From positions 1,146,683-1,210,682 of the forward strand of contig KV748222.1 in NCBI GenBank assembly GCA_001692895.1: 64,000 nt of DNA, read 5' to 3'. Every line of letters starts with the position of its first letter. The first letter of the stretch is position 1. Under the pieces are notes generated by a model. That model was not told the DNA's origin. It was given only the letters and a program-made list of their open reading frames with translations, and searched no databases. This document shows positions 1,878-48,097 of this stretch, in pieces. A program made the translations under genes and the position numbers. This DNA is from Cenococcum geophilum 1.58 (taxonomy: Eukaryota; Ascomycota; Dothideomycetes; Gloniales; Gloniaceae).

Positions 1878-4145
1878 TTACGACGATATCCTTAAAAAGG
1901 CTCTTTTTCGCCGGAGGGTCTTTTTCGAAGAAGCGTCTGCAAGAGTCTCGGCTGGGATTGGGTTCTGGTTAAGCGCCTCATATTTCCCTCCAAAGGAATT
2001 AAAAGCCTGTCGCGCGGCAGGCATTTGGAGAAACTCCTGGTGCTGGATCTGAGGACCTGAGCCAATCATTGCCTCAGTAACAGCTGGGTTCCAAGCTTGG
2101 TTGAACGTGACGAGACCGGGAGGGTGGGAATCAGGGTTGATATAATCATTCCTTAGGCCATTGGGTTGAAAAACGAAGTCCTCGTTGCGGTTTGGTAGAT
2201 CTCCTAAATGGTCGTATGATGAATCCACTGCTATTCTACCCTGATTCCTGTCGGCGTGATTTGAGTAGCTACTCTCGCTCGAAAAGGGATTAAACTTCTC
2301 GTCGGTAAATCCTGTGACGTTAGTTCGAGAAGATTGTGAAGTTCCTCGAGTAAAAAGGCTGGAAGCTTCCGTTTCAATTTGCGATTCCTGGAAATAACCT
2401 TGTCCAGCCGATAGAGAGATATTGTATCCTGCATCTGCCATGTCTACATCATGACAAAAGGCTGTACACGCATACGTGTCGCTAGGAGATGGCGCAAGGT
2501 CCACAGGATCCAAATGCTCTGGGTAGGAAGAGGCTTCTACCTCCGTCCCAAGATAGGATGTTTCCAAGATAGGATGTTTCCAAGATAGGATGTTTCCAAG
2601 ACAGGGACACTCAAGTCTTGCATACCTGGTCCACTTGCCGATACCGGGCGTTTTGAGGGCGATTGAAACTGACCGGATTCACTGGCCGTATGTGCAGACC
2701 CTCGCCCAAATATCGCTGCGCCATATTTTGGAAGTGGATTAGGAAGCTCGATCTTGGCGTTTCTGCGTCGGGACGAGAACTGTTGTATTCGATCACATCT
2801 ACAGGAAACTTGCCTCGTGGGGCGAATGCCCGATTTCGGACATGGTTCGAAAAGGTGGGCTGAGCTGTGCCACTGAAGTCCTGTGGCAGTGACCAAAGCC
2901 TGGCCTGGTAGGGAGTGGCTCTCGTGAAGGAGTTCGCACAAGGTGGACGTCTGGATAGTGAGGTAATCCTTATCCCGCGGAACATTCTTGAATTTGTTGC
3001 ATAACGAAGCGGACGTTGCTGGTTGGATGACGTCGTTGAAGTTGTCTGCAAAGAATACGACCGCACCATTGTCGCGCGCAAAAGCCGGCCACTGTCCACA
3101 GGTTTTCTTAAGCCCAGTTTCGTGAACTTTCATTCGAGGCTTACGTTGTAGGAATTCCATATAATTCCAACCTTGAACCTGTTGCTCCCAGCTCAGCTTA
3201 AGCTCAATGCCCGCCTCGGAGACGTTTTCTGTTTCGGCCTGTAAACCTTCAAGCATCTGATAAAGCTCCCGGACTTCATCCCGAAATAGCTTTACTTGAA
3301 CATCCTCCTTATCGAGGTGCTGGTCTCGACGCAAAATGAGATCGTGATTTTGGACCATGCTGTCAAAGACAGAATCCGGTTGATCGCAGACTGCACTATC
3401 AAATTTGACAAGTTTGCAATCCACACGATACGGTTTCAATGAGTGACGGTTGAGGATTGCGTGGAGAATGAACCTTTGGCCATCAGTATGCCACGCGCGG
3501 CGTTGTGTCATATCTTGAAGAATAACATGGGTCTGACGAGCATCGTCAAGCAGATCTTCATAGAAATCGGAATGCTGAGCATGGTAGGTGCCATCCTTGC
3601 GGCCTATGGAGAAGCGGGCACTTGCAGTGACGATTTTCGTGAAACCAACAGAACCTCCTGTTAGCTTTAGTACCTTTTTTGAAAGTGGTGTGATTTTGGA
3701 TGGGGGTAATAATGTTGTGAAGTCGAATGACTCTGTCGCTGCATGCCATTAGCCTATTTGACAGAAAATTCCTCCTTGAGACGATATAATGAGGTGGATA
3801 TCTCTCCAGAGGTACCAACAGGAGTAGTAACATACCGAGATGGTTAATGGTTGCGCTATACCACCCGAGAAATGCTCTAGTTGAATGTAAGGCTGTTTCT
3901 CCAAATTCTGCCAGCATGAGGCGGGCTGGACAAAGTGTTCGAACATCTTTATAGCTAATCCTCCCTTGATCTTTCTTCAGGAAATGCCATTGCACGGAGT
4001 CTCCTAGCCGCTCGATAGGTACAAACATTGTAGATCGCCCTTTTAGGATATATCCTCCCCCAAATTCCGTTGCATTCAGAATGCCACCTAAAGCTGACAT
4101 GATCTCCAACGGGATCTCCAGACCTGCTTCATTCGGCCTATAAAA
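1878..4145 (-). pseudogene. Truncated, frameshifted copy of an uncharacterised fungal protein family
   Basis: The first visible exon (4145 down to about 3834) contains the block GLEIPLEIM and then FGGGYILKGRSTMFVP. I recall these as typical of a large uncharacterised Pezizomycotina family that often sits in repeat-rich regions. A donor GTATGT at about 3833 and an acceptor CTAACAG at about 3662 join it to a second exon with GFTKIVTASARFSIG, RRAWHTDG and LPKYGAAIFG, which fit the same family. No function is known to me. Two lesions are seen. The frame breaks at a tripled 16-bp repeat (2548-2601). Upstream of about 4145 the gene meets degenerate, transposon-like sequence, so the N-terminal part is missing. 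The C-terminal frame runs on to a stop at 1878. The intron is about 170 bp, so a small exon inside it could have been missed. Confidence 0.7.
2548..2601. repeat. 16-bp unit repeated three times inside an exon
   Basis: The unit CCAAGATAGGATGTTT occurs at 2548-2563, 2564-2579 and 2580-2595, followed by a partial fourth copy (CCAAGA). The two extra units add 32 bp, which is not a multiple of three. On the minus strand the coding frame changes here. With a single unit, the upstream and downstream frames would join smoothly. Confidence 0.9.
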
Positions 4146-5477
4146 CAACCCCTGCGCTAGTACTATACTGCTACTATCCAGACCTATAGCTAAAGCTTTC
4201 TATACCTAATACTCGGATTATCCTAAGCCGCCTAAACCTATTACTAGCATTATACTACTACCGCTAAAGCCATCCGCATCTAATACCTAGATTATCCTAA
4301 GCCGTTTAACCCTATTACTAGCACCGTACTACTACCAAACTAATAAGCCTTATATTAATACGCCTACAAACTAACAAGACCTCGCGCCGCTACGCCTATA
4401 AAACGAACCCAATAACCTATTACGTCGATAAGCCTACGACCTAACCTAAATACGACTAGGTAGAGCCTCGCTCCCTAGGTATCCCTACTAGATAGAGCAT
4501 AGCTCTCTAGACCGACCCTATCGCTTATATTATACTGCCACCTAAACCTATTAACAAGACCTCGCGCCAATATGCATACGAACCCAAACTAATAAGCTCT
4601 ATATCGATTCGCCTACGGAACCTAAACACGTTACTAGTATTATGCTACTACCTAAATCTAATAAGATCCCGTGCCGATATGCCTACAGAACCTGCGCTAG
4701 CACTATACTATCACTAATAAGAACCTACCACGACCATAACACCATACCGTACTATAAATACTACACCGCACCAACAAGAACCTACTAAGATACTACACTA
4801 TACCGTACCGACTATACCGTATTACTAGAATCTATTTACCCACCTACCTACCCCTATACACACTATACGACACACTCCCTATAGAGGGGGGGAAAGAGGG
4901 GGGGGAAGGGAGGGCCCTATTAGCCTTAGGATAAGACCTAGTAAGGAGGGACCATATATAGATATATAAAGGAAGACCGTAGAGCTACTAGAAGCGAGAA
5001 AGGGACTATATAAGCTTTAACAATGCATCTCTAAGCGGCAAGAATAGGAGTATAGCTGGTAATAAAAGCTAGGCTATGCTTTAGGCCTAATAAGTTAGTA
5101 GCCTAATAATTAAACATAAAAGGACCGAACTAGAGGAGCCTATATAGCGGAGGACGTAGAAGGGCGAAGAAGGGCTAATAATTTTTTTTCCCGTAATGGG
5201 TTTTTTTGTATATATGATATAATAACGCCTCGCAGGAGCTCGGAAGTAAGAGGGAGGTACTATCACAGGAGTCACCCACGCACGTTCGTCCCGTAACACC
5301 TACGCACGTCTTACGACTACCCCTATTCCCTTAACCACGTTAACCTAACCTGTTCTGTTTCCTTATCTAAATGTCTTTATATTAACCACGCATAGTTACG
5401 TGTACGTAGCCTTCTTTAATTACTACCCCGTTTAGTATATTATATTCCAGCTTATGCCTACTTCCGTAACACAAACA
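4146..5477. repeat. Degenerate CCTAA-rich and AT-rich repeat debris
   Basis: No gene is recognised. About 4210-4340 holds two diverged copies of a block of roughly 60-80 bp (both contain TTATCCTAAGCCG and CTATTACTAGCA). Words such as AAGACCTCGCGCC recur at about 4378, 4557 and 4665. A purine tract with several G runs lies at 4886-4916. A minus-strand stretch starting TGTTACGGGACG at 5299 could be an old LTR edge, but no second LTR was found. CA/TG depletion indicates RIP. Confidence 0.5.
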
Positions 5478-5995
5478 CAGTTAGAAGGAGCCCTTAAGCC
5501 TATTTAAGTAGTTTTCGATTATAAGGCCTTAGAATATTTTATAATAACAAAGGCCCTTATAGCCTAGTAGGTATACTAGGCGAAAGTCTTATCCCAATTT
5601 AACTTCCTAATTATATATAGATTAAGTACTACTAACTATGCGGATGCTCTTATAAGGCGTAAATAGGACCTAGATAACTAGGCAGCTATAAAGATATTAT
5701 TATAGACTTAGACGCTATTATAACTAAAATACCTTAACCTTTAAATATAGGCAGAACTAAATACGGACCCTTTAAGCGCTAAGATATATCCTATTAATTC
5801 TATAGAACTTAACCTTATTAATAAACTGCTATAGGTAAACTGTACGGCCCCTTCTCTATAGGAGTATTGTAAAAAGGCAAAGGATAATACTAGCCTATAG
5901 TCCCTTAAAAACGGACTACTTAAGCACTAGGAACGGCTAGTAGTAGTAAAGGAATAGAACTTACGGACTTAGCTTATTGCCGAAGTATATACCTA
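5478..5995 (+). pseudogene. Gypsy-B RNase H to integrase N-terminus relic
   Basis: The frame carries EGALKPI, then KALEYFITTKAL, LSQFNFLI and TTNYADAL, which is the RNase H signature of Ty3/gypsy Pol (DHKxLEYF, LSxFNF, NxxADALSR). The linker then runs to ERLVVVKE..NLRT..LIAEVY at the start of the integrase zinc-binding part. Stops replace Gln or Trp throughout. The segment ends exactly at the TA dinucleotide (5994-5995) used by the minisatellite element. Confidence 0.85.
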
Positions 5996-6111
5996 CATCG
6001 GCAAAATATTGTCCCTTGTAAATGACCTCAGCTGCTAGAAGTTGGCGTCGTTGGCGGGCCATTGAGGGCATTGACCAACTTGACAAACCAGCCTATGTCG
6101 AGTTCATTTGA

Positions 6112-6170
6112 CACGCAGCCTGCGCGCAGCCTGCGCATAGCCTGCGTAACCTGCGCAACCTGCGCAACCT
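6112..6170. repeat. Minisatellite a: about 10-11 bp, CGCAGCCTG type (copy 1)
   Basis: Short GC-rich units alternate as CGCAGCCTGCG and TGCGCAACC. The reverse complement of the same array, with more GCGC, is at about 41768-41822 in copy 2, near the corresponding end. Confidence 0.8.
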
Positions 6171-6276
6171 ATATAACTTATAATTTTAGATAATAAAGGC
6201 TACTTTAAAGCCGTTTATAAAGCTATCAAGATAAATTGTATACACTTCTTTATATAATCTACTACGCCCACATCTG

Positions 6277-6650
6277 CTACCTGTCTGCATCGTCTACCTG
6301 TCTACATCACCTACCTATCTGCATCACCTACCTGTCTGCATTACCTACCTGTCTGCATCGCCTACCTGTCTGCATTGTCTACCTGTCTGCATCGTCTACC
6401 TGTCTACATCACCTACCTGTCTGCATCACCTACCTGTCTGCATCGCCTACCTATCTGCATCATCTACCTGTCTGCATCGCCTACCTGTCTGCATCGTCTA
6501 CCGGTCTGCATCGTCTACCTATCTACATCACCCTACCTGTCTGCATCACCACCCTGTCTGCATCGCCTACCTGTCTGCATCGCCTACCTATCTGCATCGT
6601 CTACCTATCTGCATTGTCTACCTGTCTACATCGCCTACCTGTCTGCATCT
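6277..6650. repeat. Minisatellite b: 17-bp units (copy 1)
   Basis: The consensus unit is CTGCATCGTCTACCTGT, about 22 units, with variants ending CTAT and internal CACC or GCC. Because 17 is not a multiple of three, the array yields long open frames with a 17-residue period in all phases. These are not evidence of a gene. Copy 2 carries the inverted array at about 41346-41590. Confidence 0.9.
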
Positions 6651-6870
6651 GCCTTATAGTGTCTAATTCAATTTGGGGAGAGTCGGCCCGATCAAAGGCT
6701 CTGATTGATTCGAATCGTTCTCCATAGCCGTTCGCCTGCTGTACATTTGAACAGTGGTCATCTAGGGTGCCTCCCTAGGAGGCTTAATTCGATTCGATTC
6801 GGTAATAGGCTCTGATAATTCAATTAATCGATTGAATCGTTCGTGGTGTTCGCTGGCTGGTTGTTCAAAC

Positions 6871-7262
6871 GGTCGTCGTCTGGTTCTAGTAACGGTCGTC
6901 TGCTAGTTCTGGCGACGGTCGTCTGGTTCTGGCGACGGTCATCTAGTTCTGGCGACGGTCATCTGGTTCTAGCGACGGTCATCTGGTTCTGGCGACGGTC
7001 ATCTGGTTCTGGCGACGGTCGTCTAGTTCTGGCAACGGTCGTCTGGTTCTGGCGACGGTCATCTGGTTCTGCGACGGTCATCTGGTCTGGCGACGTTCGT
7101 CTAGTTCTGGCGACGGTCGTGGTTCTGGCGACGGTCGTCTAGTTTCTGGCGACGGTCGTCTGGTTCTGGCGACGGTCGTCTAGTTCTGGCGACGGTCGTG
7201 GTTCTGGCGACGGTCATCTGGTCTGGCGACGGTTGTCTGGTTCTGGCGACGGTCCTCTGCTG
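6871..7262. repeat. Minisatellite c: 20-bp units (copy 1)
   Basis: The consensus unit is GGTTCTGGCGACGGTCGTCT, about 19-20 units, with a few single-base and dropout variants. The inverted array is at about 40800-41285 in copy 2. A short CCTCC/GGAGG palindromic spacer adjoins this array in both copies (6767-6782 and 7276-7294 here, about 40763-40785 in copy 2). Confidence 0.9.
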
Positions 7263-7356
7263 GCTGCCGTTCCAGTGCCTCCTAAGGTAGGGAGGATGTA
7301 AGGAAGGGTAAAAATAAGGGTGCTGCAAAGGGGGTAACTTGGCAGAGGCACGTGCG

Positions 7357-7752
7357 GGACCCGATGTAGAGCTTCGTGTAGAGCCTCCGTACGCAGAGCT
7401 TCGCGCAGAGCCTCGTGCAGAGCCTCTGTACGTAGAGCTTCGTGTAGAGCTTCGTGTAGAGCTTCGTGCAGAGCCTCGTGCAGAGCCTCTGTACGCAGAG
7501 CTTCGTGCAGAGCCTCGTGCAGAGCCTCTGTACGTAGAGCTTCGTGTAGAGCTTCGTGTAGAGCTTCGTGCAGAGCCTCGTGCAGAGCATCTGTACGCAG
7601 AGCTTCGTGCAGAGCCTCTGTCGCAGAGCTTCGTGCAGAGCCTCTGTCGCAGAGCTTCGTGCAGAGCTTCGTGCAGAGCCTCGTGCAGAGCCTCGTGCAG
7701 AGCCTCGTGCAGAGCCTCTGTCGCAGAGCTTCGTGTAGAGCTTCGTGTAGAG
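7357..7752. repeat. Minisatellite d: 12-bp units (copy 1)
   Basis: The core unit AGAGCCTCGTGC alternates with AGAGCTTCGTGT and the longer variants AGAGCCTCTGTACGC and AGAGCCTCTGTCGC, forming higher-order groups. The 12-bp period gives long open frames on both strands that I regard as artefacts. The inverted array is at about 40171-40672 in copy 2. Confidence 0.9.
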
Positions 7753-7810
7753 CCTCTTGAGCATATAACTTAAAAATAATCTATTATATTACCTTAATTG
7801 TATATAAGGA

Positions 7811-7980
7811 ATATATAAGTTGGTTAACTGCGTGTTATTTAACTTTTAAATATGTCAAGTTGGTTAATTGCAGGTCAATTGCAGGTCAATTGCGTGTTAT
7901 TTGACTTTTAAATATGTCAAGTTGGTCAACTGCGTGTCATTTGACTTTTGAATGTGTCAAGTTGGTCAACTGCATGTCAA
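7811..7980. repeat. Minisatellite e: about 40-bp units (copy 1)
   Basis: Units combine TATGTCAAGTTGGTCAACTG with CGTGTCATTTGACTTTTAAA, repeated about four times with partial units. The inverted counterpart in copy 2 is at about 39872-40118. Both run into GCGAAACGCG-type sequence next to the element end. Confidence 0.85.
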
Positions 7981-8016
7981 TTACGCGAAACGCGCTTAAC
8001 AAAGTCGACTTGAAAC

Positions 8017-11000
8017 CAGTGTGGCCAACAGTCAGCGTCCAGCGAGCTTCGCTGACTGACTGTACCAATTGAACCGCTCGCTGTCCGCTCGCTGGGTAAA
8101 TGTGTACGCTGACTGCACCGCTGATAGCGCGCTTATCCAAATCGGGTAATTTGTATAGATTTAATGGAGTTATAGAGCTAAAATTTAGATTTTTAACAGC
8201 ACTTCTGTATGTATAAATATTGATATTGCCTAATATTAAATCTACCTTAATTAACCTTGTATAGTATTTAGATATCGCCACGCCGCGTAGGCTTTAAAGA
8301 AGTTCGTAGTGACGTTAGTAGTATGTCACGGGACACCCCCGTGACACCTTATACACGTCCACCTGTTTCCACCGACTCAGCAACTAGAGACTGACCACGA
8401 GACGGCAATTTGCGGCAATCTGACGGCAATCTGCCATATTCTGCCATATTCCGCCAAGTTCCACCGAATCCTGCCAAGTTCTGCCAGGACCACCACCTGA
8501 ATCCTATTCTGCTCCGTGCACGTGTTGACCAAGCAACCAAGCTAACGATATATACCCTTTCTTCCCGTTTCCCTGCCTTCTCTCCTTACGCAACGTCTTG
8601 ACCTTATCACACAGTTCATGTATATAGCTTAATAGTATCTACTTTGCTACATATTATCGCCGCTTATACTCACTCCGTGACATAGTAGGGACTTGGGTTA
8701 GGTGGTTAAGTAGGCTCTATAAGCTCTATTTTAAAGTTAGATTCTATTAGGTAGAGAGCTCTAGTAAACGTACCTCTCTTATCTAGTGTTTCTACCACTA
8801 TATCTAACCTATAGCTAGTAAGATTGGTTTTTAAACTTGTTAACTAGGGCGTAGCTAAGGCTCTGTTAGAGTTAATACAGTTAATTAAGCTGCTTGGTAA
8901 AAGGCCTTTAAGTAGCCACTATTTTTAATATTAGTTTACTTTAACTATATCGGCTAAGAGCCTATTGCGCTTATTAGAAATAATCTTCTTAGCTTAGCTA
9001 AAAGCTCGCTTATATATAGAGCTTATTACTAGTATAGAAAATAGATCTAAAGTAATCTTAGTAAGAGTTAGATAAAGGATTTAACTAGTAGTAAGCTACC
9101 AGTTAAGAGGATCTGGAATAATATTGCTTACCTTACTACCGTTTTTATTACGGATCTTAATTAGCTTAAGGCCTGCGTTATAGTAGCGATTAAGTTTAGT
9201 AGTAAGCTTAATTTACTTTTGCGAGCGTAAGAAAGTAAGGTTCTTATTAACTAGTAGAGATTATAAATATTTATCGCCTAAATCGTCGCTAGATATATAA
9301 GGAACCTTCCTACGTTATAGTTTAACTACCTCCTTATCTTCCTTACCTACTTACTTATTAATATAGTCATCAAATACTATTTTTATACACCTCTTAGCGT
9401 GCTTCTACTACTATAGCCACCGTTTCTACTTATCGCGAAAGTAGGCGCGTTTAAGAGAGGGATAAAGGATAACTGCAATAAAGTAGTACGGGCTCTCAGC
9501 TTTTATTTTATCGAAATACTTATTAAGCTTCTGCAGAGCTATATTAACGCTAGATTTAAAGAAGCAGTTATCTATATTCTTAAGATTCTGCTAAGTTTAT
9601 ATAAGGATCTAGTAAAGAAGCTTTATGTTTATAATTAACTCCTATAAAGCTCCATATAAGCCCTTAACGCCATAGCTATTAGCATTACCTTTTATGCGTT
9701 TAGTAGCTAATATAAAAGGCTTTAGGATTTTAATAAGCTGCTTAACTTCCGCCTAATCTTCTTTAGTAAGAAAGTCTTGCGTAAGGTTGTAGCTATTATT
9801 AGTAGGCTTCCTCTAAGTTAGTAGATATTTATTAATCACTTTCTTAAGAAGTAGCGCCTATTAAAGTATAAAGTAGGTAAAATTCCACTAAACGCCACCG
9901 TCTTTAATAAGTATAAGTTCGGCTTAATTAAAGAGCTTATCCTCCATATAAGCCTTAGCTTAATTCTTAGTAAAGTTTTAGCGGTGAGCCATAAATTGTA
10001 TAATATATTTAATAATATTATAAACTTTTCCAACGACACCTTTCTACCGCATAAGGTTAAATTTAGCTTAATCGCTAGCACTAATTAGCAAGCGTTTAAG
10101 CTTGCCAATACCTTTACTATATAGTAAGGCCTTAATAATAAGGTTTATAATATAGCCAACATACTAGAGTTGTTCCCTTTTTGCCACTATAAGGCTTTAT
10201 AAGAGATATTCGTAGAGCTTATTATTATTAGTGGCGTTATTAGCTATTAGACAGCCAAGCTTATATTTAAATTAATACTTCTAAATAACTGTTGCTAAAG
10301 CTATTACCACATTCTTAGCTATATGCGATCCTTATATCTATAGAAGTCCTATAAGAATTAATTGTAACTTACTATCTTTATTAACTAAGTAAGCTACTAC
10401 ACTAAGTAGTAATATTTCATTTATTAACGTCCAGATATTACAGCTAATATAGATTTTACTTTATAAGGTAAGGAGGAGGTCTTTAATATTAAGGCGTTGG
10501 CGCTTAAAAGCAGATTTTATCTAGTTACTTAGTGATATATATAAACGTATAAGACACTCTTATATCTAAGGACGGTCAAATATAAGCAATGCGTGGGTAT
10601 AAGTACTTATAGCTTACTGAAATATAATATCCTATAGGATTGTCCAATTAATATAGGCTTATATATAGCCAGCTGCCCAAAACGGCTGGCGTTTGCTACT
10701 GCCGGATATAGGAGAGACTTAAGCGTTTAGTTTGGATAGTGCTTATAGAGTACTACTATAGCTATTATAATTAAGAATAAGACTATATTTCGATTTTAAA
10801 TGGCTAACAATATAATCTATACCGTTAATTGTAAGTAATATAGCTGGTCTTTAAGCTAAATAGCAGATTTTATATAACCAGAGTCTCTTTCTACCCTTTA
10901 GCCCGTCCCAGAACAGATCTGCTCTATACTTCTATATTATTAATATAATGGAGTTCTTTAAAAGGGACCGCTTATTAATAATTTAGTATCCGTATTTACT

Positions 11001-11527
11001 AGTAAGCTTGCCGTACTTACCTAGGTAAAGATTATCCCAGTTAATAGGAAAGATATAGCTATAGTTCTAGCCAATTAATGGAGGATCTTGTGATGTAGAG
11101 TTATTCTGCTTATTTAATTTGGGCGTGTTTTTAATTATAAGGGGAGTAGAAGTAGTAGATCCGCGACGCCTATGGGATACTAAAGAGCTTAATTAACGCG
11201 TAGATTGTGAACTTAATGAGAAAGAATAATAAAAAGGTTAATATAAACGCGTGTATATACGCGACAGGGAATTTGGAGAAAACTATACTATTTTATATAA
11301 ATATCCCAGGGGTTTCCCGCCCGAATTTTAGCCGAAGACCCTTAGATCTTTAACCTCTACTAAAAGCTTTAAAACACCATCCTTTCTTACCACCTATGCA
11401 GCGAGCTGTCAGCTCGCTGCAGTCTTACCGCTGACTGACTGTTATAACTATATACGCTGACTGACTGCTTATATAAGCAGCTAGCTGCCAGCGACGCTGC
11501 CAGCGACGCTGCCTGTTGGCCACACTG
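8017..11527 (-). mobile_element. hAT-superfamily DNA transposon with 8-bp target duplication
   Basis: The 23-bp terminal inverted repeats have one mismatch: CAGTGTGGCCAACAG at 8017-8031, continuing to 8039, and the reverse complement at 11505-11527. The 8-bp flanks are CTTGAAAC (8009-8016) and CTTAAAAC (11528-11535). They differ by one G-to-A change in a TG context, as RIP would produce. The empty site is visible at the matching position of the other minisatellite element (about 39828-39865). Just inside the TIRs, GC-rich subterminal repeats (GCTGACTGACTG, CCAGCGACGCTG) escape RIP and could be transposase-binding sites. Length is 3511 bp. An 8-bp duplication, TIRs starting CAG, and a transposase relic together identify hAT. 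Confidence 0.93.
8690..11290 (-). pseudogene. RIP-inactivated hAT transposase
   Basis: On the minus strand around 9780-9620 the frame reads LTKED-stop-AEVKQLI, then KILKPFILATKRIKG and NSYGVKGLYGAL. This is the typical hAT block where a DW pair is followed by LL-x-PF and a small Gly-rich stretch, so the stop replaces Trp. A further open stretch at 9836-10081 precedes it in the same direction. The rest is AT-rich with frequent TAG/TAA. I could not place the N-terminal BED finger or the C-terminal dimerisation domain, so the boundaries are approximate. Confidence 0.75.
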
Positions 11528-11620
11528 CTTAAAACCCAGCCTGCGAATATTTTCCCGATGTAGGTCTCTATAACTTACCCTAAAAAGAATAAAACCTATA
11601 AGATTATTAGTAACCAATAC

Positions 11621-39813: not shown

Positions 39814-39871
39814 TAACATCGGGAAAATATTCGCAGGATGAGATTCAAGTAGACTTTGGTTTTCGCGTTTC

Positions 39872-40118
39872 GCGTAATTGACATGCAATTTGACTAACTC
39901 GACACGCAATTGACCAACTTGACACGCAATTGACCAATTTGACACATCTAAAAGTCAAATAACACGCAGTTGACCTATTTAACAACTTTAAAAGCTAACT
40001 ATATATTCCTTGACACGCAGTTGACCTACTTAATAGCTAACTGTATATTTCTTAACACGCAGTTAACCTATTTAACAACTTTAAAAGCTAACTGTATATT
40101 CCTTAACATGCAATTAAG
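39872..40118. repeat. Minisatellite e (copy 2, inverted)
   Basis: Units contain TTGACACGCAATTGACCAA or GACACGCAGTTGACCTA, plus an AAAAGCTAACTATATATTCC spacer. It is more expanded than the copy 1 array at 7811-7980. Confidence 0.85.
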
Positions 40119-40170: not shown

Positions 40171-40672
40171 AGAGGCTCTGCACAAGGCTCTACACGAAGC
40201 TCTACACGAAGCTCTACACGAAGCTCTACACGAAGCTCTACGTACAGAGGCTCTGCACGAGGCTCTGCGCGAAGCTCTGCGTACGGAGGCTCTGCACGAA
40301 GCTCTGCACGAAGCTCTGCACGAAGCTCTGCACGAAGCTCTGCACGAAGCTCTGCGTACGGAGGCTCTGCACGAAGCTCTGCACGAAGCTCTACGTACAG
40401 AGGCTCTGCACGAGGCTCTGCGCGAGGCTCTGCGTACGGAGGTCTGCACGAAGCTCTGCACGAAGCTCTGCACGAGGCTCTGCGCGAAGCTCTGCGTACG
40501 GAGGCTCTACACGAAGCCCTGCACGAGGCTCTGCGCGAAGCTCTGCATACGGAGGCTCTACACGAAGCTCTACACGAAGCTCTATACGAAGCTCTATACG
40601 AAGCTCTACGTACAGAGGCTCTGCACAAGGCTCTGCGCGAAGCTCTGCGTACGGAGCTCTACACGAAGCTCT
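40171..40672. repeat. Minisatellite d: 12-bp units (copy 2, inverted)
   Basis: The unit is CTCTGCACGAAG with CTCTACACGAAG, CTCTGCGTACGGAGG and similar variants, about 40 units. Long open frames on both strands follow from the 12-bp period and are not regarded as genes. Confidence 0.9.
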
Positions 40673-40799
40673 GCATCGGGTCCCCGCTATATTCCCGATA
40701 GCGTCTACACGTGTCTCTGCCTATGTAGCCGCCTTATTTTTTACCCTTCCTTCTTCCTTACATCCTCCTACCTAGGGAGGCACTAGAACGGCAGCCAGC

Positions 40800-41285
40800 A
40801 GAGACCGTTGCTAGAACTAGATGACTATCGCTAGAACTAAAACACCGTCGCCAGAACCAGACGACCGTTACTAGAACCAGACGACCGTCGCCAGAGCCAG
40901 ACGACCGTCGCCAGAACCAGACGACCGTCGTCAGAGCCAGACGACTATCGCCAGAGCCAGACAACTGTCGCTAGAACAGACACCGTCGCCAGAACCAGAC
41001 GACCGTTACAGAACCAGACGACCGTCGCCAGAGCCAACGACCGTCGCTAGAGCCAGACGACCGTCGCCAGAACCAGACGACCGTCTCCAGAGTCAGACGA
41101 ACTGTCGCCAAAACCAGACGACCGTCGCCAGAGCCAGACGACCGTCGCCAAGAACCAGAACGACCGTTACCAGAAGCCAGACGACCGTTACCAGAACCAG
41201 ACGACCGTCGCCAGAACCAGACGACTGTCGCCAGAGCCAAGACGAACCGTCGCTAGAACCAGAACGACTGTCGCCAGAGCCACGA
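40800..41285. repeat. Minisatellite c: 20-bp units (copy 2, inverted)
   Basis: The unit is AGACGACCGTCGCCAGAACC with many single-base variants, including AACGACCG indels. It corresponds to 6871-7262 in copy 1. Confidence 0.9.
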
Positions 41286-41345
41286 CGACAACGACTAGCC
41301 CAGCGAACACTATAAACGATTCGATCGATTAATCGAATCAAGGTA

Positions 41346-41590
41346 GCACAGACAGGTAGGCACAAACAGGGAGATGCTGACGGGTAGGCAGATGTAGACA
41401 GGTAGGCAGATACAGACAGGTAAGCAGATGCAGATAGGTAAGCAGATGCAGACAGGTAGGCAGATGCTGACGGGTAGGCAGATATAGACAGGTAGGCAGA
41501 TGCAAACAGGTAGGCGATGCAGACAGGTAGGCAATGTAGACAGGTAGGCAATGCAGACAGGTAGGCGATGCAGGCAGGTAGGTAGATAGG
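41346..41590. repeat. Minisatellite b: 17-18-bp units (copy 2, inverted)
   Basis: The unit is GCAGATGCAGACAGGTAG with variants GCGATGCAGACAGGTAG and GCAGATGCTGACGGGTAG. It corresponds to 6277-6650, with fewer units here. A short CGATTCGATCGATTAATCG stretch precedes it, matching about 6820 in copy 1. Confidence 0.88.
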
Positions 41591-41767
41591 CAGGTAGGTA
41601 AGTCAATAGGTAGATAGGTAGAAGAGAACCATCGCTATATTATATTAAATTATCTAAAATAATATTATTTATTTTGCTAGCCTTATAAATAGCTTTAAAA
41701 TAGCTTTTATTTATTTAAAATATGCTATTAGTATAAAAGAGGTAAATATAATTATGGTTGCCAAATG

Positions 41768-41822
41768 CGCAGATTACTGGCAGGTTGCGCGCAGGTTGCG
41801 CGCAGGCTGCGCGCAGGCTGCG
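41768..41822. repeat. Minisatellite a (copy 2, inverted)
   Basis: GGTTGCGCGCA and GGCTGCGCGCA units repeat about five times. The array corresponds to 6112-6170 in copy 1 and lies about 120 bp from the element end. Confidence 0.8.
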
Positions 41823-42181
41823 TGTCAAAAAAACACGACATAGGCTAGTCGGTCGAGTTGCCAAATAACCTTAACTGCGCGCCAATTGCGTCAACCACCA
41901 GCCATTGAGGCCATTGAAAGGGTACCATATTTTGCCGATAAATCTAACCTTAATAGATTATTAATAAAGTCCTTAGTAGCCCTAGCGACTCTATATAAGA
42001 TCCGGACGCCACTATAATAGCTATATATAGCACTCCGGCGAATAGGGTAGTAGCTTCTAGGCTATATTCTAATCCAGACTTAAATAGTAGTAAGGGTAAG
42101 GGTTCTAGTACTTATAATACTACTCTTCAGCCAAATACTATAAAGAGGCGCATTTCTAGTGCCCCCGCTTAATACACTAAG

Positions 42182-42406
42182 TGTTAGCAACTTAGTCAAT
42201 TAAGGCACAAGCACGACAAGAGAGACGCGCAAGCCTATACAATTAGTAGTCTATAAACGAGGATCTAAAGCTAAAGAAAGGAAAGAAAAAGAAGAGCAGC
42301 GCCGGTTAAAGTAGGGTTCTTTTATACGGTCCTCTAGTTACATAACCTCAAAGTTCTGCCAAGTTCTGCCAGTCAAGTTCTGCCAAGTTCTACCAGTGCC
42401 GTAACA
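42182..42406 (-). repeat. 3' LTR of gypsy-B copy 2
   Basis: On plus it runs TGTTAGCAACTTAG to GCCGTAACA. It contains a short internal direct repeat, AAGTTCTGCCA, several times near 42350-42395. On the minus strand a GTATAAAAGAACC TATA-like site lies near 42320. Confidence 0.92.
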
Positions 42407-45400
42407 TTACCCCCCCCTCCGCAAAAGCCTGCCCTCAGGCTTTGTATATCCGTATTATGCCTATAAGGCGTTCCTATCTTTATACTCTTTCGGTAGCTTA
42501 TTATCTTCATTATACTAGCATTCCATTCATTTGTCTAGGTACTTTAGCGGTCCCGGTTTATTAGGGTAACAGCTATAGAATTCTTAAAGCTTATAGGGGC
42601 TACTAATAAAGTTCTATATAGGGTACCAGGTAGAATCTAGGTTATAGCCTTTCCAACTAACGCGGTACTTTAGCGTTTTCCTTACTAGCTTATAGGCTAG
42701 TATCTCTTTAATTTCCCATTTATTATCGCCACTAACTTAAATCGGCAAGGGGGGTTTGTTCTTTTATTTAGGTAATAAGTCGTTTATAGCCTTCCGTAGC
42801 TTATCCGGTAAAAAGATAGGGTAAACCTTAATTAAATCTAGGAGCTCTACTTTATATAAATTGCCTATTTTCTTAAAAACCTTATACGGTCCTACTATCT
42901 AATAATTGAGCTTATAGCTAGGCCGTTCCATCTTCTAGTTCTTTATTATAACCCAAACCATATTACCTATGGTAAAGTTAGGCTCGCGCCTATGCTTATT
43001 TGCCTACTATTTTATTAATTTCTAGGCCTTTTCTAGGTTTATACGGGCTACCGTCTAGGCTTCCTCTAAGCGCTTAGCGTACTGCTAGGCTTCCTTATAA
43101 GACAGTTTCTCGCGTATAGTTTATGGTTCTTCTAGCCTATCCTAGTTAAAGCTTATTTAGGGTAGATACCCCATTTCTAATTAGATAGGTGCAAATCCCA
43201 TAAAGTTATAGGGTAGGGTCGCCTGGGCGTAGTCTATTAGAGGTAGTAGTTCGCCCCAGTTATCTTAGAAGTAGTTAATAAAGGGCCGGAGTCTCTGGTC
43301 TAAGTATTGATTTATAATCTCCGTCTAACTATCTGTTTAGGGGTAGTATGCCATAGAAAGCTTTAGCCTAATTCCTAGGATTTAGGTAAACTTGTTTTAG
43401 AAAGCCGATATAAACTACGGTCCGCGGTCCAATATAATAGTATCTAGTAGTCCGTAAATTCGGTAGACGTAATAGATATATAGTTGGGCCGCCTCTTTAG
43501 CGTTGATATTCTTATAACAGGGGATTAAGAATAAACGCTTGCCAAAGCGGTTAACTAGGATTATAACCATATTATATCCGTCGCGGTCTGTAGGCAGCTT
43601 ATAAAAGTCTATAGAGATATGCTGCTAGGGGCGTTCTAGTATCGGGAGTGGCTTTAATAGTCCTGGGGTCTTATCTCGCGGAATTATAAACCTACGGCAG
43701 TCGTTGCAGTTCCGTATATAGCGGTTAATATCTATAACCATTCCGGGCCAGTAATATCGGTTACTAATAATTATGCGGGTCTTATTCTTTCTAGGGTAGG
43801 CTATAAAAACCTAGGCATGTGCTTTAGTAATAAGCCAAGTCCGTAAGTTCTATTCCTTTACTACTACTAGCCGTTCCTAATACTTAAGTAATCCATTTTC
43901 AAGGGACTATAGGCTAGTAACATTCTTTGCCTTTTTACAGTACTCCTATAGAGAAGGGGCCGTACAGTTTATCTACAGCAATTCGTTAATTAAGTTAAGT
44001 CCTAAAGGGTTAATAGGATACATCTTAGCGCCTAAGGAGTCTATACCCAGTTCTGCCTATATTTAGGGGTTAAGGTGCTTTAGTTATAGTAGTATCTAGG
44101 TCCGTAATAAGATCTTCGCAGCCATCTAGTTACCTAGGTCTTGTTTGCGCCTTATAAGAGTATCCGCATAGTTTATAGCGCCTAGTCTATATATAATCAA
44201 GAAGTGAAACTAAGATAGGATATCCACCTAGCGTACCTGCTAGGCCGTAAGGGCCTTAGTTATTATAAAGTATTCTAAGGCCTTATAATCCAAAACTACC
44301 TTAATAGACTTAGGGGTCCCTTCTAGCTATGCACGCCAGTGCTAGAAGCTAGAGATAATAGCTAGCATTTCTTTATCATGGATATAGTAGTTTAGTTCAG
44401 CATCTATTATAGTCTTTAAATAGTATACAATAGGGTGCTATTCTCCGTCTAGTTACTTCTAGGAAAAAACACCGGCTATTGCGCCGTCTAAGGCATCAGT
44501 TTCTAACATTAAGGGCCATTCTAGGTTAAAATAGGCAAGTAGGGGAGCCGATACCAGTCGTTTTTTAAGCTTAGTAAAGGCCTGCATACATATAGCGTTA
44601 AAGTAGAAGGGCTGGTCTTTCCTAGTAAGGCGGTTAAGAGGCCGGGCAATCCTACTATAATTCTTAATAAAGCGTCGGTAGAAGTTACAGAAACCTAAAA
44701 ATAATTATACCCCTTTTATGGTCTATAGGGGTGTCCACTAGTCAATTGCGGCCGTTTTTTCTAAGTTGGCCTTAATTCCGTCTATACTAATAATAAAACC
44801 TAGGTACTTTATACGCTTGACACTAAATTCTAACTTCTTAATGTTGGCCTAAAGGCTAGCTTCCCAGAGCCGTTATAGGACTTTATAAATATGCTCCTAA
44901 TACTCCAATTTATTCTTAGAGTAGATTATAATATTATCTAGGTAGGCTATGCAGAAGTTATTAAGGTAGTTAAATAGTATATTATTTATATACCGCTAAT
45001 ATATAGCCAGTCCGTTAGTCAGCCTAAAAGGAAGCACTTTGTATTTATATATTCCGTAATAGGTCTAAAATATAGTAAAATTCTCTAATCTAGGGTCCAT
45101 TCTAATCCGGTAAAAAGCCTAACGAATATTAAGCTTTGTAAAGATCTTAGCTCTACTTATTTGGGCTAAAGTCTCGTTAAGTAAGGGCAGTAGATAGCGG
45201 TCCTTGCGGGTTATATTATTAAGTTTATAGTAGTTAATATAGAAACAAAATCCTCTATTTGGCTTCTTAGCAAAGAGAATAGGTAAGTTAAAAGGGGCTT
45301 AGCTAGGCTTAATAAAGCCCTTATCCAGGTTATCGATGAGGTACTACTTTATAGCCTATAATTCGGCAGCAGACTGCTGACGGAGGGGGCTATAGCTAAA

Positions 45401-47872: not shown

Positions 47873-48097
47873 TGTTAGCGACTCAGTTAATCGAGGCACA
47901 AGCACAATAAGAGAGACGCGCAAGCCTATACAATTAGTAGTCTATAAACAAGGATCTAAAGCTAGAGAAAGGAAAGGAGAAAAAGAGCAGCGCCGGTTAA
48001 AGTAGGGTTCTTTTATACGGTCCTCTAGTCACATGACCTCAAAGTTCTGCTAAGTTCTGCTAGTCAAGTTCTGCCAAGTTCTGCCAGTGCCATAACA
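47873..48097 (-). repeat. 5' LTR of gypsy-B copy 2
   Basis: This 225-bp partner of 42182-42406 differs mainly by transitions. The sequence just inside (complement of GATAAGCTTTAGATAA) shows no standard TGG primer site. Confidence 0.92.

Follow-up and report, generated by a model that had tools for sequence, protein, structure and literature searches.

Introduction

Terminal inverted repeat (TIR) elements with internal tandem repeats are already known. In bivalves, tandem-repeat miniature inverted-repeat transposable elements (MITEs) have short TIRs around one type of internal array with a variable copy number, and Helitron/DINE-1 elements are interspersed, non-autonomous elements that contain minisatellites and spread them; Helitrons are not known to have TIRs or target duplications. 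Here, we describe an element that occurs twice in a 64,000-nucleotide stretch of DNA (positions 1,146,683 to 1,210,682 of contig KV748222.1; hereafter the window, to whose first letter all positions refer) and in many further copies in the same genome. Unlike Helitrons, this array element has TIRs and target duplications, and unlike the bivalve MITEs, it holds five different arrays and has an identified large partner.

Two described systems come close. Tetris, a foldback element of Drosophila virilis, is likewise a non-autonomous TIR element with internal tandem repeats, and the outer portion of its TIRs is also found in a MITE, much as MITEs with related ends occur here; in Tetris, however, repeats of ~220 bp lie inside the TIRs, whereas here TIRs of 14 bp enclose five unrelated short-unit arrays (PMC4079207). 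Plavaka transposons of the CMCT group have been reconstructed from Agaricomycotina, and for PlavakaB elements, that account gives CATCA..TGATG termini and 2- or 3-bp duplications (PMC12730594). The partner found here is like them in its PF18759 domain, its 2-bp duplications, and its CATC... termini close to those of PlavakaB, and unlike them in its length of ~20 kb, its CATCG..CGATG termini, and the lack of a TET/JBP domain in the frames scanned. It also differs in its host, which looks like a filamentous ascomycete bearing repeat-induced point mutation (RIP). In the literature searched, which did not cover Repbase or most subscription journals, we found no description of the array element; what seems to be new is its build from five arrays, the identified ~20-kb Plavaka partner, and the presence of one core array in two TIR families. 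We hold, at a probability of about 0.82, that the array element is a high-copy, non-autonomous derivative of this ~20-kb Plavaka DNA transposon with a minisatellite core.

Results and discussion

The TIR pattern of the family matched four times in the window (0.72 expected; none of 100 shuffles reached four), at the ends of the two loci for which a first-pass annotation had reported common ends, five arrays in the same order, and inverted orientation. Copy 1 begins with the left TIR CATCGGCAAAATAT (5996..6009, plus strand) and ends with the right TIR CATCGGGAAAATAT (11547..11560, minus strand), between TA target-site duplications at 5994..5995 and 11561..11562. On the plus strand, it holds array 1 of ~9- to 11-bp units (GCGCAACCT / CGCAGCCTGCG; 6114..6170) in the left subterminal region, array 2 of 17-bp units (CTACCTGTCTGCATCGC; 6277..6654), array 3 of 20-bp units (GTCGTCTGGTTCTGGCGACG; 6875..7259), array 4 of 12-bp units (AGAGCTTCGTGC; 7368..7756), and array 5 of 20/40-bp units (7862..7980) in the right subterminal region. 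Copy 2 lies in the opposite orientation, with AA duplications at 39815..39816 and 41941..41942, its right TIR at 39817..39830 (plus strand), and, all on the minus strand, array 5 (20/40-bp type; 39878..40112), array 4 (12 bp; 40175..40675), array 3 (20 bp; 40799..41289), array 2 (17/18 bp; 41368..41598), array 1 (11 bp; 41767..41822), and the left TIR TATCGGCAAAATAT with one mismatch (41927..41940). Tandem Repeats Finder (TRF) returned arrays of ~11-, 17- (18 in copy 2), 20-, 12-, and 20/40-bp units at both loci, in identical order. The annotation had also named TA and AA duplications and an absence of coding sequence, and both hold: in the element proper, the insertion described below excluded, no gene was seen and the long open frames were translations of repeats. 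Long TIRs made of repeats, the hallmark of foldback elements, are not present, as the TIRs measure 14 bp and the two ends are unlike beyond them.

Contrary to the annotation, 5996-11560 is not one element. A 3.5-kb, decayed hAT transposon (8017..11527, minus strand; TIR CAGTGTGGCCAACAG) interrupts copy 1, with inverted ends of 26 nt that are 92% complementary, an 8-bp target duplication (CTTGAAAC at 8009..8016 and CTTAAAAC at 11528..11535, with one G-to-A difference), and the hAT dimerisation domain PF05699 on the minus strand (E 1.1e-6). This insertion is why the locus of copy 1 is larger than that of copy 2; without it, copy 1 measures ~2,046 bp, as compared with 2,124 bp for copy 2.

The shared array order could also suggest that both loci derive from a single segmental duplication. 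The copies, however, belong to different subfamilies: over their left 170 bases, copies 1 and 2 share 131 of 162 aligned positions; copy 1 matches locus L022 (subfamily B) at 163 of 170 bases, and copy 2 matches L013 (subfamily A) at 157 of 170. Moreover, their target duplications differ, their flanks resemble each other only at the level of shuffled sequence, and copy 1 has an empty site (see below). The probability of a segmental duplication, an outcome that the annotation had allowed for, is thus vanishingly small, and copies 1 and 2 are separate insertions.

Following the annotation’s proposal to look for paired TIRs, we searched the 177-Mb assembly (162 contigs) and obtained 667 exact TIR matches (323 + 344), as against 16 (7 + 9) for a reversed-pattern control. 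Places were taken from the first 100 matches listed, among which 25 facing pairs lay at most 7.2 kb apart; all of these were fetched, along with 15 further loci with exact ends outside facing pairs. Twelve of the latter gave 15 intervals (L038, L040, and L046 gave none; the outer end of L039 was accepted with three mismatches), which, with the 25 pairs and the two window copies, makes 42. Identical 2-bp flanks were found in 41 of the 42; 2000 shuffles of the partners averaged 11.9 and never exceeded 19. The exception was L032 (TA/AA), and three flanking bases were equal in one interval. The duplications comprised TA (20), AA/TT (10), CA/TG (4), AG/CT (3), AT (2), GA/TC (1), and AC/GT (1). With a share of 49% among duplications versus 17% in the flanks, TA is preferred as a target but not required. 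The annotation had left room for copies lacking the TIRs, and none appeared among the copies tested.

Upon joining the flanks with one copy of the duplication and demanding an ungapped match of at least 50 bp on each side, we found empty sites for 12 of the 42 joined flanks within 360 kb of fetched sequence (the 12 do not include L035_2142, which was also tested but had inserted into an array). The paralogous empty site of copy 1 lies in the window at 43755..43931 (minus strand; 177 bp, aligned without gaps to the joined flanks at 84.7%), while copy 2 had none within the 360 kb. In a genome-wide search with the joined flank of copy 1, all 40 scored matches (of 1010 candidates) crossed the junction, each reaching at least 46 bp past it with no net gap. 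The insertions were therefore precise and occurred, at least partly, into repeated DNA.

Two of the 42 intervals are MITEs of 515 bp (L025) and 564 bp (L037) with related ends and no inner arrays, and L026, the core of which reads N, was left out of the array counts. At the letter level, which we used because a purine/pyrimidine code proved too permissive for three of the arrays, with shuffled sequences scoring equally high, 38 of the 39 readable array-type copies carried 17-, 20-, 12-, and 20/40-bp units in that order; in the remaining one, L034_2283, the 12-bp units were not found, and in L030 and L035_450, one array was reduced to a single recognised unit. A further subfamily is represented by L056, with a diverged left end, 17- and 20-bp arrays, and the start of a 12-bp array. 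The existence of array-less MITEs with related ends, together with the varying array lengths, might suggest that such a MITE inserted and that the arrays then arose and grew anew at each site. Yet the same four larger arrays recur in the same order, as do the non-repetitive anchors between them in 22 copies, which contradicts independent growth as the origin and lets it survive only for the change in length; as an origin, it is highly improbable. Because copies at unrelated sites share one ordered set of arrays, the arrays travelled with the element and only their lengths change. Of the annotation’s suggestion that arrays grow after insertion, the part on varying length, often by whole units, stands, while the part on their origin does not.

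A likely transposase-bearing partner with the same TIRs, of the kind that the annotation had proposed to look for, was found in this genome. The Plavaka domain matched 123 times genome-wide, in some cases twice per copy (best E 2.1e-66). At L071 and L072, such matches adjoin the right TIR of the array family; these two loci are 88.6% alike over 7 kb, until ~20 bp beyond that TIR, and both carry the family’s right end with its 40-bp array, while a read-through frame of L071 contains PF18759 (E 1.4e-32). An inner 4.5-kb block (L073) was present at 32 full-length, collinear places including itself (33 of 336 candidates scored), the others at 89-92% identity, and in 28 of the 32, a same-strand Plavaka domain match followed downstream after 8.2-8.8 kb, as against 10.5-20.7 kb in the remaining four. 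Left-end matches on contigs C4, C8, and C28 (from 40 scored of 554 candidates) sit 8.6-8.7 kb upstream of this block, and the right ends predicted from the coordinates were found within 80 bp in three of three cases. The three elements thereby delimited measure 19,998, 19,956, and 20,020 bp, bear the array family’s TIRs and duplications of AA, TA, and TA, and each hold, by coordinates, a decayed Plavaka domain match. A transposase domain inside and 2-bp duplications in three of three elements are Plavaka traits; as the termini differ from CATCA..TGATG, with four of five bases equal, we did not file the partner as PlavakaB. Beyond Plavaka, Pfam scans yielded nothing, TET/JBP included, in L073 (six frames), L038 (three plus frames), and L071 (three plus frames and one minus). 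Near the Plavaka right end of L071 (~6540-6745), a long 10-bp array (TATATAAGAT type) is shorter in L072, so arrays vary in length in the partner too. The best domain match (G000:C30:1712561-1713541) is full length with five stops; it shows less decay than the remaining long matches and could be part of a different Plavaka family.

The ends of the partner and of the array element are similar. Compared with four array elements, the ends of the 20-kb elements are 78-84% alike in the leftmost ~310 bp and 73-85% in the rightmost ~300-390 bp, the differences being largely gaps and transitions, and copy 2 equals one Plavaka left end at 159 of 170 bases. The two kinds of element thus have TIRs, subterminal ends, and duplication length in common, and the 11-bp (left) and 40-bp (right) arrays of the shared ends scored one to three matches per Plavaka end versus zero to one in shuffles. 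The unpaired exact end L038 reads as a Plavaka left end followed by array-free sequence, and none of the 17-, 20-, and 12-bp arrays turned up in L038, L071, L072, or L073, which cover part of the Plavaka interior. Along the Plavaka left end L074, similarity extends to about base 333 in L013 and copy 2 (both subfamily A) and to about base 306 in L022 (subfamily B), in both cases breaking off just before the 17-bp array; as the breakpoints differ, the core may have been gained separately in the two subfamilies, or the breakpoints may have drifted since.

Array lengths, for which the annotation had suggested a comparison among copies, differed widely in the 22 copies with all anchors (including L011, which has a nested insertion in its left part): 188-449 bp for the 17-bp, 130-956 bp for the 20-bp, 149-702 bp for the 12-bp, and 126-453 bp for the 40-bp array. 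By comparison, the right end measured 66 bp in all 22 and the left part 277-310 bp, L011 excepted; the 41-bp spacer between the 17- and 20-bp arrays is the length of the search anchor and was not used as evidence. In nine close pairs, mostly picked by shared words and aligned in purine/pyrimidine code at a high mismatch cost that keeps transversion counts low, we counted 0-10 transversions per pair and transitions of 5-18% by region, while 63 of 67 indels of at least 8 bp fell within the four larger arrays (three of the others in the left part, which holds the 11-bp array, and one in a spacer). The pair L010 and L030 had zero transversions over 1,815 aligned bases and differed by 197, 20, 308, and 42 bp in the four larger arrays, by 11 bp in the left part, and by gaps of 1-2 bp in a spacer. 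Indel sizes were often, but not always, multiples of the unit (11, 22; 20, 40, 100; 41, 42, 81, 164), and L031/L043 showed many irregular gaps. With few transversions and most of the larger indels in arrays, array length therefore changes faster than sequence.

The arrays showed 8.7-17.8% transition change as compared with 5.1-6.8% in most spacers and ends (18.1% in one), and are hence not spared relative to most spacers. Among departures from the unit, C-to-T plus G-to-A made up 579 of 1052 (17-bp array), 1324 of 1745 (20-bp), 579 of 1055 (12-bp), and 566 of 811 (40-bp), with only 341, 476, 368, and 390, respectively, in the classical CpA context. Given this limited CpA share, we call the decay RIP-like; RIP is a probable source of many of the transitions, and others may contribute. 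The family offers a natural experiment: in one genome, hundreds of copies each carry several minisatellites that change in length, whereas the intervening single-copy sequence, transitions apart, changes little. The same molecules therefore report how fast arrays change relative to substitution and to RIP-like mutation.

We suggest that the array element would have retained the Plavaka TIRs, ~300 bp at the left, including the 11-bp array, and at least ~300 bp at the right, including the 40-bp array, and would have lost the Plavaka interior including the transposase gene, with a non-coding core of 17-, 20-, and 12-bp arrays standing there instead. Judging from the shared ends, the Plavaka transposase most likely recognises them in trans and moves the element by cut and paste, leaving 2-bp duplications. 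The core would be a passenger, its arrays carried from site to site; the observed length changes may arise by replication slippage or unequal exchange, and RIP-like mutation would account for the observed decay of copies. Shared ends connect a MITE with a minisatellite element and with a large decayed Plavaka transposon in what looks like an ascomycete, and the case shows one route for the dispersal of minisatellites, and perhaps for their exchange, between transposon families. The annotation’s proposal of a non-autonomous TIR element that spreads minisatellites is supported, as is its idea of a partner with the same TIRs.

Several points weigh against this derivation. All 123 Plavaka domain matches contain internal stops, with no intact gene seen, and mobilisation in trans is deduced from the sequence of the ends. 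The domain in the three 20-kb elements was placed by coordinates, and sequence read with certainty amounts to only ~11.8 of the 20 kb, made up of 11.3 kb on the right side (L072 and L073) and 0.45 kb on the left, so that the inner arrays could lie in the remainder. A further 5.4 kb of L038 is collinear by assumption only; this locus is ~12 kb longer than expected and therefore holds an insertion somewhere. As for the contrast between arrays and single-copy sequence, two spacers also vary in length (109-128 and 51-96 bp), and the alignment cost mentioned above favours low transversion counts.

A driver from another superfamily (a CACTA element with PF02992, ISL2EU/PIF, or Tc1/mariner) would match the 2-bp duplications that some of these make, and the genome does contain 66 PF13359 matches, yet such a driver is very improbable. 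Tc1/mariner needs TA, which accounts for 20 of 41 duplications and leaves 21 of 41 non-TA; ISL2EU elements duplicate AT (PMC4482050), which was seen in only 2 of 41, and the six PF13359 matches on C1-C4 are all more than 8 kb away from any listed TIR. On C61, a PF13359 match near a MITE was unrelated; this candidate locus, L049, contained just a 544-bp MITE. PF02992 (Transposase_21) gave zero matches, but this says little because the same search matched no control genome either. The pogo of L047 and the hAT of copy 1 are both nested, with ends of their own. The former (~2755-4580) is a pogo/Fot1-type transposon with TIR ACGTAATAGCCACCC, a TA duplication, and long open stretches (HTH_Tnp_Tc5, DDE_1).

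Other candidates for a driver were likewise rejected. A search for atypical ends gave 15 matches versus 11 in the control, and the 8 of 15 that were read (L053-L060) had array- or MITE-type ends. Among end pairs 18-20 kb apart on C2-C4 (L061-L066), two were array elements with long nested insertions (duplications AA and TA), and a pair on C2 consisted of two different elements (TT versus AA). L050-L052 were MITE ends with nested insertions, and L046 combined a MITE-type end and a retroelement-like insert.

The 20-bp array is not confined to the CATCGG family. Among 15 loci with a perfect dimer of its unit, counted on C1 to C5:3.84M, four lay within 3 kb of an exact CATCGG TIR, two near a second TIR, CGTCAGGAAAACGGGAG, and nine near neither. 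This second TIR matched exactly 102 times genome-wide (0 in the control). L067 (C10) and L068 (C11) are complete members, with TA and GG duplications, L069 (C2) has one recognised end, and L070 has core arrays with no ends found. The arrays of L067 and L068 have units of 11 bp (AGGGGCTAGCC type), 9/14 bp (CCTGTCCTA type), 20 bp, 11 bp (CCTGCTAGGAG), and 40-41 bp, of which the 20-bp unit is the same as in the CATCGG family, and there are short AT-rich arrays without a counterpart there. The two families are hence similar in the order of array sizes and alike in sequence only at the 20-bp array and in the DNA around it. In the core of copy 2, a short sequence at the edge of the 12-bp array (40674-40701) contains TIR-like words that read both ways (CATCGGG...TCCCGATAG); it is common to the second family (L068, ~1645-1672) up to CCCGATG and may be a relic of ends or chance.

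These similar rows might mean that the core, as a module, has reached at least two TIR families whose ends differ, and that both came to hold similar rows because arrays aid transposition or blunt silencing, a possibility that we consider unlikely. Likewise, we doubt that selection on transposition kept the inner arrays as working parts, such as binding sites for transposase or host factors or decoys for silencing, even though the two outer arrays are common to the Plavaka element and the second family repeats a similar array order around the same 20-bp array. Elements that lack the inner arrays have spread as well (the MITE-type right end gave 37 matches, some of them partial), none of these arrays turned up in those parts of Plavaka that were read, transition change in the arrays was not below that of most spacers and ends, and the extra AT-rich arrays of the second family make the parallel a loose one. 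If the module reading were true, the arrays would be parts of the transposon rather than passengers.

Elsewhere in the window, a 24-bp tandem unit (AAGTTCTGCC...CCAGTC) occurs at 42351-42397 and again at 48042-48088, and similar words are found inside the nested hAT, near 8440-8490.

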